Assembly (NCBI GenBank): GCA_024275485.1
Contig: JAJRZA010000096.1
Coordinates: forward strand, 1 to 46,949
Direction: 5' to 3'
Length of the DNA: 46,949 nt
From: Candidatus Krumholzibacteriota bacterium
GTDB lineage: Bacteria; Krumholzibacteriota; Krumholzibacteriia; LZORAL124-64-63
The number at the start of each line of letters is the position of its first letter. Within the stretch, counting starts at the first letter, position 1. This document shows positions 33,922 to 36,402 of the stretch, one piece after another. The translations under genes and the position numbers were made by a program. The notes under the pieces were generated by a model that did not search any database, was not told the DNA's origin, and saw nothing but the letters and a program-made list of their open reading frames with translations.

Positions 33922-34320
33922 CGTCTTGTGCTAAAAATCCTCCAATACTTGACAGGGGAGATACGAAAGGGAATTGACATTGCAGAACCGGCAGAAAAGC
34001 GATGTGACCATTGTCGAGAACAGATTGGCCCAATTCGACAATTGCTTTGGCCATTTGACTTGAACCATTTGACTTGGCCACGGAGATTCCGTAGCGTCAG
34101 ATTACAGGTTGGAATGCAACCTTTGGCATCTGCGGGGCTTCGTCCCAAATCGCGGCCGGAGCTGTATCTGGCAGCTGGTTTGCCCACCGGTCACGAACAG
34201 GCCCCGCACTCACTCAATTGGCTCAATTCATTTGGTTGTTGGGCCAAACATGATTGTAAAACAACGACCAGCCCCAATAGGGACTGGTCGTTGTTGCAAA
34301 CATTGCATCGTATGGCACAT
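33922..34320. other. Intergenic region with nested inverted repeat
   Basis: About 400 bases with no supported gene. At 34010-34042 an 8-bp inverted repeat (attgtcga / tcgacaat) encloses a second one (attgg / ccaat), with a 6-base bulge on the left side. A short direct repeat 'catttgacttg' occurs twice around 34052-34077. The right end holds a terminator for the minus-strand gene. It may be decayed sequence continuing the adjacent remnant. Confidence 0.5.
34254..34295 (-). terminator. Terminator of the CheY/CheX operon
   Basis: A perfect 12-bp stem (34260-34271 with 34284-34295), whose loop can add three more pairs, lies 25 bases past the last gene on the minus strand and is followed there by 'ttttacaat'. 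Confidence 0.75.
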
Positions 34321-34803
34321 CTACGGTGCAATCAGTGTCAAAGTGGCCTTTCCAAAAGCTGTTTGACCAACATAGTCCACCCGCTTCGACGGATTCAGCA
34401 CCCAGGCGACAAAGTCATCCGGACCCGGCACCTGATAAGGGAAGGTTTCGGTGGGAGCCACGTGTGGATTCAACTCAATTTTGTTGTACAAGGTCCTCAG
34501 GTTGTTGATCACCTCGGTGACCGCTTCGATCACCGGCTCGTCTGCCATGCCCATCTGGAACTGGTCCTTCAGTGTTGCCTCGGGCAACAGGATCAGCTTG
34601 CCGCCGATGTACAGCGTGGCTGCCAGGTCGGTGATAATGGCCCCTTCGACCGCGTTGTCTCGTCCCTGCAGGAACGTGATGTAGGCTCCGGGACTTGGAT
34701 TGGCCAAATCCCAACCTTGACCTTCCTTGAACACAGGTTTCTCATCAATGAGAAGTCCAACCAGTTCCAGGATCTCTTGGGTTTCAGGCAATACGACCGT
34801 CAC
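34321..34803 (-). CDS. Unknown protein in CheY/CheX operon
   Basis: A 160-residue soluble protein. The middle 'AIITDLAATLYIGGKLILLPE' followed by 'EPVIEAVTEVINNLRTLYN' recalls the layout of CheC/CheX-type domains, where a strand pair is followed by a helix with 'E..N', but the phosphatase signature is not clean. The C-terminal part ('FVAWVLNPSKRVDYVG') is unique. Its ATG lies 5 bases after the tandem-CheX gene stop, so it is part of the operon and may be a third, diverged relative of those domains. Function not known. Confidence 0.65.
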   Translation of the reverse strand: MTVVLPETQEILELVGLLIDEKPVFKEGQGWDLANPSPGAYITFLQGRDNAVEGAIITDLAATLYIGGKLILLPEATLKDQFQMGMADEPVIEAVTEVINNLRTLYNKIELNPHVAPTETFPYQVPGPDDFVAWVLNPSKRVDYVGQTAFGKATLTLIAP

Positions 34804-34808
34804 GACAA

Positions 34809-35867
34809 CTATCCTTCCTGCCAGATGATGACGACATAGGCTTCCAGGCCCTCCGCTCCACGCACGGTTTGGGCCATGCCCTGCACCCCTCTGGCGAAAA
34901 ATTCAATGCAACTGCCGCCTTCCATGAACAGCGGCAAACCCAGCTGGACTGCTTGCCCGGCCTCGGCACGGCTGGATTTCAGCACCCCGGCCGCCACGTT
35001 GGCGATTTCGCCCACGGCATCGGCCATGTCGGCCATTTCGGGATCTTCATCGGGCTCCATGGCGAACATGGCCCTGGTAAATTTGGCGCAGCTTTCCTTG
35101 TTGGCCATAACAGCCAGTTGCCAGCCGCCGTTTTTGGCGGTCAAGGCGATGGCGCTACCAAAATCAACTGCGGCTTCGCGGGGATCCGAAGGATTGGGAT
35201 CGACTTCCAAGTGGAAATCCATCTGAATGGCGCAAGTGTCGACTACGGCTTTGACCGCTTCCCGCAATACCTGTGCAGGGACGCTAATTTTATTGGATTC
35301 TACGGTATTAGTGCTCATTTGCTGTGTGCCTCCAGCATTGTTGCAATACTGCCAGATCAAGACAACCTGAATGCTGATGCCGTCGGGTCCCTTGAGTTTC
35401 TGGGAAATTGCGTTGATTCCACGGGGGAAGAAAGTGAGCCAGCCATTGCCCTTGAAAAAGATGGGCAAACCCAGCTGGTACCATTCGTCGTTGCTCTTTT
35501 CCCTATTGGCCTTCCATACTCCGCCGGCCATATTGGGAATTTCGTTCAACGCGTCACCCATGTCTTCCAAGGTGAGTTTTTCGTCCTCTTCCATGGCGAA
35601 CAGGGTACGCGTCAAAACTTTAGCAGTATGATCATCAAAGGCCGTTGCATACTGATAGCTGATATCTTCATTGGTAAGAGCAACGGTGCTGCCAAAGAGG
35701 ATACCTTCGGGGTCGGGGATGCCGGGCATGCCGTCGGTCACCAGATCCATATTGAATTGGACTGAGAACGAGTGCACACAAGCATCCACCGCCTGTTTCA
35801 TGGCCTCCATTTTGGACATCATGTCCGTAGGATCCTCGGTTCTCTTGATGCGCATGGTGGCTGTCAC
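34809..35867 (-). CDS. Tandem CheX-like domain protein
   Basis: A 352-residue soluble protein made of two similar halves. Each has an N-terminal helix ('AVDACVHSFSVQF' / 'AVVDTCAIQMDFHL'), a strand pair ('GSTVALTNEDISYQYA' / 'GSAIALTAKNGGWQLAV'), the helix 'LEDMGDALNEIPNMAGGVWK' / 'MADMADAVGEIANVAAGVLK' and a final strand ending in 'IWQ'. The E-x2-N helix is the catalytic motif of CheX/CheC phosphatases, which dephosphorylate CheY. Both halves keep Glu and Asn. GTG start overlapping the CheY stop by four bases; ATG 35855 is an alternative. Joined domains are unusual, since CheX normally dimerises. Confidence 0.75.
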   Translation of the reverse strand: MTATMRIKRTEDPTDMMSKMEAMKQAVDACVHSFSVQFNMDLVTDGMPGIPDPEGILFGSTVALTNEDISYQYATAFDDHTAKVLTRTLFAMEEDEKLTLEDMGDALNEIPNMAGGVWKANREKSNDEWYQLGLPIFFKGNGWLTFFPRGINAISQKLKGPDGISIQVVLIWQYCNNAGGTQQMSTNTVESNKISVPAQVLREAVKAVVDTCAIQMDFHLEVDPNPSDPREAAVDFGSAIALTAKNGGWQLAVMANKESCAKFTRAMFAMEPDEDPEMADMADAVGEIANVAAGVLKSSRAEAGQAVQLGLPLFMEGGSCIEFFARGVQGMAQTVRGAEGLEAYVVIIWQEG

Positions 35868-36226
35868 GATACAAACGCCCCCAACACCTGGGCCATGTCA
35901 TCGGCGGTGAAAGGCTTGGCCAAGAGGAACATGGCACCGCCTTCAGTCGCCTGGTCGACCATTTCCTGGGTGCTTTCAGACGTTACGAACCCAAAGGGGA
36001 TTTCAATACCTTCGGCGTTCAGGGCCGTCAGGAATTCAATGCCCGTCATGATAGGCATGTGCCAATCGGACAGAATCAGATCAGGGTTTTCGGCCTTGGT
36101 GACTTCGAGGGCTTCCTGGCCGTTTTCGGCCTCCACGATGTCATGACCGGTGAAGCCGGCCTGCCTGATCGTCCGAGAGACGATGCGGCGCATGGCCCGG
36201 GAATCGTCTACGACCAGAATCTTCAT
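35864..36226 (-). CDS. CheY-like single-domain response regulator
   Basis: A 120-residue receiver domain: acidic pair in 'VVDDSRAM', phosphoacceptor Asp54 in 'LILSDWHMPIMTG', switch Thr in 'FVTSES' and Lys in 'LLAKPF'. There is no output domain, so it acts by binding a partner, as CheY does on the flagellar switch. ATG with 'gaggag' 7 bases upstream. First gene of an operon with a tandem CheX-like protein; no CheA kinase, receptor or flagellar gene is nearby, so the kinase that feeds it must be elsewhere. Confidence 0.93.
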   Translation of the reverse strand: MKILVVDDSRAMRRIVSRTIRQAGFTGHDIVEAENGQEALEVTKAENPDLILSDWHMPIMTGIEFLTALNAEGIEIPFGFVTSESTQEMVDQATEGGAMFLLAKPFTADDMAQVLGAFVS

Positions 36227-36402
36227 TTCGCTCTCCTCTTGAAATGGTGTCTGATCACCTGGCTCCGTTGAAGTAAAACCCCACCAGGACGATCGTTATA
36301 CAACCGGGACAGCCTTTTGAACGCCCGGATACAACTGTTTCATCGGAAGAAATAAAAAGGAGTTGAGTGTTTTTTTGGTTAGAGATCAGGTTTTCCCGGT
36401 GG

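Follow-up and report, generated by a model that had tools for sequence, protein, structure and literature searches.

The question raised by this locus is whether a stand-alone cheY, a gene encoding two CheX-like units in one chain and a third gene encoding a 160-residue protein (Table 1) make up a module of their own, or whether they belong to a chemotaxis system whose other genes lie elsewhere. The window, by which we mean the whole stretch of 46,949 nucleotides that was analyzed, comes from a Candidatus Krumholzibacteriota bacterium. A sequence-only reading of it had described the trio as a kinase-less, self-contained operon for signal termination or for use as a CheY sink, with no kinase, receptor or motor gene nearby. 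The gene coordinates are borne out by the sequence, as is the four-base overlap (35864-35867) between the start of the tandem CheX gene and the stop of cheY; the gap from the tandem CheX gene to the third gene is 5 bases. The statement about neighboring genes is correct for the window, but it fails for the genome as a whole and for the same locus in relatives. From the evidence set out below, the trio is very probably the output and switch-off arm of CheA-driven flagellar chemotaxis, equipped with its own sigma-28-type promoter and relocated away from the other che genes in the window's genus.

Table 1. Features of the trio locus (positions in the window)
Feature	Position	Strand	Description	Evidence
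Sigma-28-type promoter	36340..36366	-	TCAA-N15-TCCGATGA, upstream of cheY	
cheY, stand-alone receiver	35864..36226	-	120 aa, ATG start	PF00072, E 4.4e-25
Tandem CheX	34809..35867	-	352 aa, GTG start	PF13690 twice, E 3.5e-19; Foldseek
CheX half 1	35289..35867	-	residues ~1-193; D105-ALN-E109-IP-N112, 22 residues, P135	
CheX half 2	34812..35288	-	residues ~194-352; D283-AVG-E287-IA-N290, 21 residues, P312	
Third gene (p160)	34321..34803	-	160 aa, GTG start	candidate CheX/CheC-like family without Pfam model
Inverted repeat	34260..34295	-	12-bp-plus, near-perfect, ~26 bases past third gene	read from sequence

The CheY of the trio is a stand-alone receiver in which the five conserved residues D7, D8, D54, T82 and K104 are all present and are invariant in 24 sequences, with the phospho-acceptor surrounded by SDWHMP. 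Its orthologs across the genera that carry the tandem CheX are 84-99% identical to it. When the two CheY proteins of four genomes are set side by side, that of the trio is the better conserved (85-94% identity, versus 64-79% for the CheY of the che operon).

Scored separately against PF13690, the two halves of the tandem protein reach 44.5 and 29.3 bits, both over the curated cut-off of 27 bits. As each half also retains an intact motif, the earlier description of two CheX-like units in one chain is upheld. The D, E and N of the DxxxExxN motif are invariant in the aligned relatives of half 1 (18/18) and of half 2 (18/18), and both halves have the combination of [DS]xxxExxN with a downstream Pro, which stands 22-23 residues past the Asn. 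Half 2 can be aligned to the lone CheX of the sister genera (hhalign 99.7%). An AlphaFold model of the tandem protein, built from five sequences, is of medium confidence (pLDDT 53) and has the same order of helices and strands in both halves. When this model is compared with the PDB by Foldseek, the top 13 matches are all chains of CheX or CheX-like proteins, at E 4e-8 to 6e-6, and most of the CheX chains have a TM score, normalized to target length, of 0.73-0.80, so that the predicted fold of both halves, at the confidence of the model, agrees with the profile matches. A plasmid search returned no relative of the protein. The known chemistry of CheX, in which the attacking water is directed by the Asn and the active-site Lys is paired with the Glu (PMC3035606), predicts that the tandem protein is a working CheY-P phosphatase with two active sites. 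The CheX of Borrelia burgdorferi being a homodimer (PMC3641820), the natural guess is that each tandem chain probably takes the form of a pseudo-dimer, its two halves covalently linked and each providing one site.

The doubling of CheX has a narrow distribution. Among 80 genomes of the class, reading frames with two CheX matches were listed for family f1 only, in the genera g1, g7, g9, g10, g11 and g13, and the middle gene encodes one CheX in the genera g5 and g6 and in the outgroup genome G046. In a phylogenetic tree each half has the other as its nearest relative, the single CheX of the same operon joins them next (with modest support, 86/88), and the CheX of the che operon stands apart from all of these. 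This position of the halves argues for an internal duplication of the operon's own CheX as the most likely origin of the tandem protein. One bacterial family documents how CheX became a two-site single chain, with its single-domain relatives supplying the before picture. The doubled CheX, with its internal duplication limited to that one family among the genomes searched, appears to be new; a literature search found no paper on tandem CheX, which is weak evidence of novelty given partial journal coverage and a search for the doubling in one class only.

The 160-residue protein has no Pfam or NCBIfam match, and all 23 members of its family return 0 families. The profile search for CheX that the sequence-only reading had suggested for this protein thus drew a blank in Pfam, and the similarity appears by profile-profile alignment instead. 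The family profile matches mixed CheX profiles at hhalign P 1.2e-5 to 2.8e-5, against 0.13-0.64 for control families, unrelated to it, from the same loci; as a yardstick, the undoubted CheX of the che operon matches half 1 at P 7e-5. To this extent the likeness in outline that had been noted between the third protein and CheX is real (P ~1.2e-5). The match is weak against the tandem halves or the che-operon CheX alone (P 0.007-0.03). Alignment of the profile to single-domain CheX gives a match and alignment to the whole tandem protein gives nothing, and a search of PDB sequences gave a chance match only. The AlphaFold model of the protein, from five close sequences, has a pLDDT of 32. Within the motif E93-AVT-E97-VI-N100, residues E97 and N100 align to the Glu and Asn of the CheX ExxN, and both are invariant in 23/23 aligned members, which are 21-86% identical to the protein of the window. 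The first motif residue is Glu or Asp in this family, and the Pro at the usual CheX spacing is absent.

Relatives of the 160-residue protein are also found further afield. Genome G038 encodes a distant one (L085 1495-2100, minus strand) with Arg in place of the catalytic Asn; no CheX was found in this genome, and the protein is possibly a pseudo-phosphatase. In two genomes of family f3, a 160-residue-like domain lies behind ~100 residues that weakly match TIGR02266, a PilZ-type domain (L083 1069-1974, plus strand; L084 1483-2418, minus strand). These TIGR02266 matches (E 7e-4 and 6e-5) are below the cut-off, and the fusion proteins have no Pfam match for PilZ. The fused gene of L084 comes after cheY and a single CheX gene.

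Because the Pfam test failed, the Pro spacing is absent and a distant member is without the Asn, we describe the 160-residue protein as apparently CheX/CheC-like and not as CheX. A CheX/CheC-like family of this kind, absent from Pfam, is new. The protein would be either a third phosphatase or a regulator. A regulatory or scaffolding role in place of phosphatase activity, for instance by partnering CheD in the manner of CheC or by competing for CheY-P, is quite possible if not what we expect on balance, and is compatible with our explanation of the trio. Such a role would suit the absence of a Pfam match and of the Pro, the loss of the Asn in L085 and the fusion, in the two f3 genomes, to a region with weak PilZ-type similarity, but it sits less well with a Glu and an Asn that are invariant in every aligned member and lie just where the profile aligns with CheX. 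It is a more speculative and rather unlikely proposal that the protein founds a new CheC/CheX-like family and forms, with the doubled CheX, three linked CheY-P off-switches, one of which is tunable by another signal; the PilZ-type fusion in the sister family, if true, would point to cyclic di-GMP as this signal. The family deserves to be tested for both roles, that of a third CheY-P phosphatase and that of a regulator.

The window corresponds to contig C81, and the one CheA of the genome is encoded on contig C67 in an operon with the order cheA-cheW-cheR-cheD-HDOD-cheY-cheX-cheB, which contains a second CheY/CheX pair. The same genome has ten matches to MCP receptors, together with FliM, FliN and flagellins. 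Throughout the family the che operon invariably includes, adjacent to cheD, a gene for an HDOD protein (L005 6196-7086, minus strand), and an HDOD gene also lies beside the fused gene in L083. Contig C14 of genome G000 (L006 3450-6239) carries a second chemosensory-like cluster encoding a two-Hpt protein, CheW, an apparently shortened CheB and a short CheX that weakly resembles CheC; CheA was not found in this cluster.

The distribution of the third gene follows that of the kinase. It is present in 27 of 58 genomes, comprising 27 of the 36 that bear CheA and none of the 22 that do not (Fisher 5e-9, with shared descent ignored), and at the level of genera in 11 of 18 with CheA and 0 of 16 without (p 1e-4, likewise ignoring shared descent). 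A module that occurs independently of CheA would not be expected to be missing from every CheA-less genome. The third gene is also absent from all 13 FliM/FliN-positive genomes without CheA, and therefore tracks the kinase and not the motor alone. FliM/FliN are present in 26 of its 27 carriers, the remaining one being a fragmented assembly.

The gene neighborhoods of relatives provide a direct link to the che genes. The genes for CheY, CheX and the third protein stand in the same order at 23/23 relatives' loci (the third gene running off the contig in one), and the trio is conserved across Krumholzibacteriia, with the four-base overlap and the three-gene order recurring in nearly all relatives. 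At 14 of the 23 loci, all from family f1, the trio is tail to tail with the che genes in the order pgi< thiI> cheY> CheX> p160> <cheB <cheX <cheY <HDOD <cheD <cheR <cheW <cheA, as far as the sequence extends. Neither pgi nor thiI is beside the trio in g5 and g6. In the outgroup G046, from another family, the trio and the che genes are one colinear operon. The che operon of G003, a congener of the window's genome, is on the same contig as the trio at a distance of ~85 kb; in the window's genus the che operon and the trio have moved apart. The genus g6 is particularly informative, since its che operon is without cheY, cheX and cheB and has no room for cheY, and no ortholog of the second CheY was found in four g6 genomes. 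In these four genomes, then, it is the trio that supplies the chemotaxis CheY standing beside the only CheA. The link between CheY and CheA is thus provided by co-occurrence and by the relatives' neighborhoods, and not by location in the window's genome. The description of the trio as kinase-less and self-contained is not supported by these observations, with p160 found only in CheA genomes (27/27), che genes adjoining the trio in most relatives and colinearity with cheA in the outgroup; a conserved sigma-28-type promoter counts against self-containment as well.

The only strongly conserved blocks upstream of cheY are T(T/C)AA and CCGAT, at the spacing of a sigma-28 promoter. The strict sigma-28 pattern occurs in 20 of 24 loci, against 0.07 expected from shuffles. 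With RA added, the pattern has 11 occurrences genome-wide, versus 2 in the reversed control, and one of the 11 is upstream of a flagellin gene; a TAAA-GCCGATT version of the pattern precedes another flagellin gene. The TAAA-N15-GCCGATAA-type promoter, together with the presence of FliA in the genome (contig C4, 258 bits), would place the trio in the sigma-28 (FliA) regulon. A sigma-70 scan found nothing, and the che operon of the window's genome has no sigma-28 pattern within 300 bases upstream of cheA. At the other end of the trio, the inverted repeat is accompanied on the minus strand by a few consecutive T residues and is possibly the end of the transcript; a terminator scan did not call it and found no terminator.

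Conservation, the promoter and the g6 genomes favor the window's CheY as the one that talks to the motor. In the FliM of the window's genome the canonical CheY-binding peptide is not clear at the N-terminus, and LDELDLDAAM may resemble it. We propose that the CheA encoded on C67 would phosphorylate the trio CheY at D54, with the resulting CheY-P binding the flagellar switch. The tandem CheX would then accelerate hydrolysis by placing its Glu and Asn in the active site of CheY-P, and the 160-residue protein would probably do likewise, all three proteins being expressed from the trio's own sigma-28-type promoter. The signal-termination role earlier suggested for the phosphatases remains the best reading. 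Weighing against this explanation are the second CheY/CheX pair in the che operon of the window's genome, the ambiguous CheY-binding peptide of FliM, the low pLDDT of the 160-residue model (32) along with the missing Pfam match, the absent Pro spacing and the loss of the Asn in L085, and the limited confidence of the tandem model (53).

The two CheY proteins, together with the second cluster (double Hpt, CheW, CheB and CheX), point to more than one output, and the trio could on these grounds serve a non-flagellar CheA output, for example type IV pili or the regulation of genes; this is improbable, as the trio and the flagellins have a sigma-28-type promoter in common and FliM/FliN accompany the third gene in all carriers but the fragmented assembly. 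Second CheYs drain CheA-P in some bacteria. That the trio is instead a self-contained sink or signal-termination module without a kinase, in which CheY would drain phosphate coming from elsewhere and CheX would recycle it, is more doubtful still: no che gene besides the trio was read in the examined part of the window and the other CheY of the che operon leaves the trio CheY free to drain CheA-P, so that a sink is conceivable for the window's genome, but it is unlikely in g6, where the second CheY was not found, and the strict co-occurrence with CheA, the adjoining che genes of relatives and the better conservation of the trio CheY all argue against it.

An apparent orphan CheY-phosphatase operon can thus be a relocated part of a normal chemotaxis system, of a kind that neighborhood-based annotation of single genomes would miss. 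CheC has two motifs in ~200 residues through an internal pseudo-repeat. The tandem protein is like the CheC of Thermotoga and Haloarcula (2f9z, 3qta) in having two phosphatase motifs per chain and a related fold, but it is made up of two complete CheX domains of ~160-190 residues, and in the fold search CheC comes out lower than CheX. Other close counterparts are Thermotoga maritima CheX (1xko, 1squ) and the Borrelia burgdorferi CheX-CheY3 pair (3hzh), which it resembles in the fold of each half, in the DxxxExxN motif and in having a stand-alone CheY as partner. There CheX is a homodimer of single domains, whereas here two domains share one chain and the operon encodes a third, CheX-like protein. 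An unusual architecture for a CheX-type domain is also seen in the CheA-CheC/CheX fusions of Leptospirae (PMC10782961), where the domain is fused to the kinase and not, as here, to itself. A precedent for cheY and cheX genes separated from the cheA to which they belong exists in Campylobacterota, where cheY, cheZ and cheX of the F3 chemosensory class are detached and where cheY and cheX were assigned to the CheA pathway by co-occurrence (PMC9321776). In both cases these two genes are distant from cheA and have conserved neighbors that are unrelated to them (prmA, trhP and fliNO there, thiI and pgi here); cheY and cheX are scattered singly in Campylobacterota, whereas in Krumholzibacteriia they share a single operon, in which CheX is doubled and which stays linked to the che genes in most relatives.
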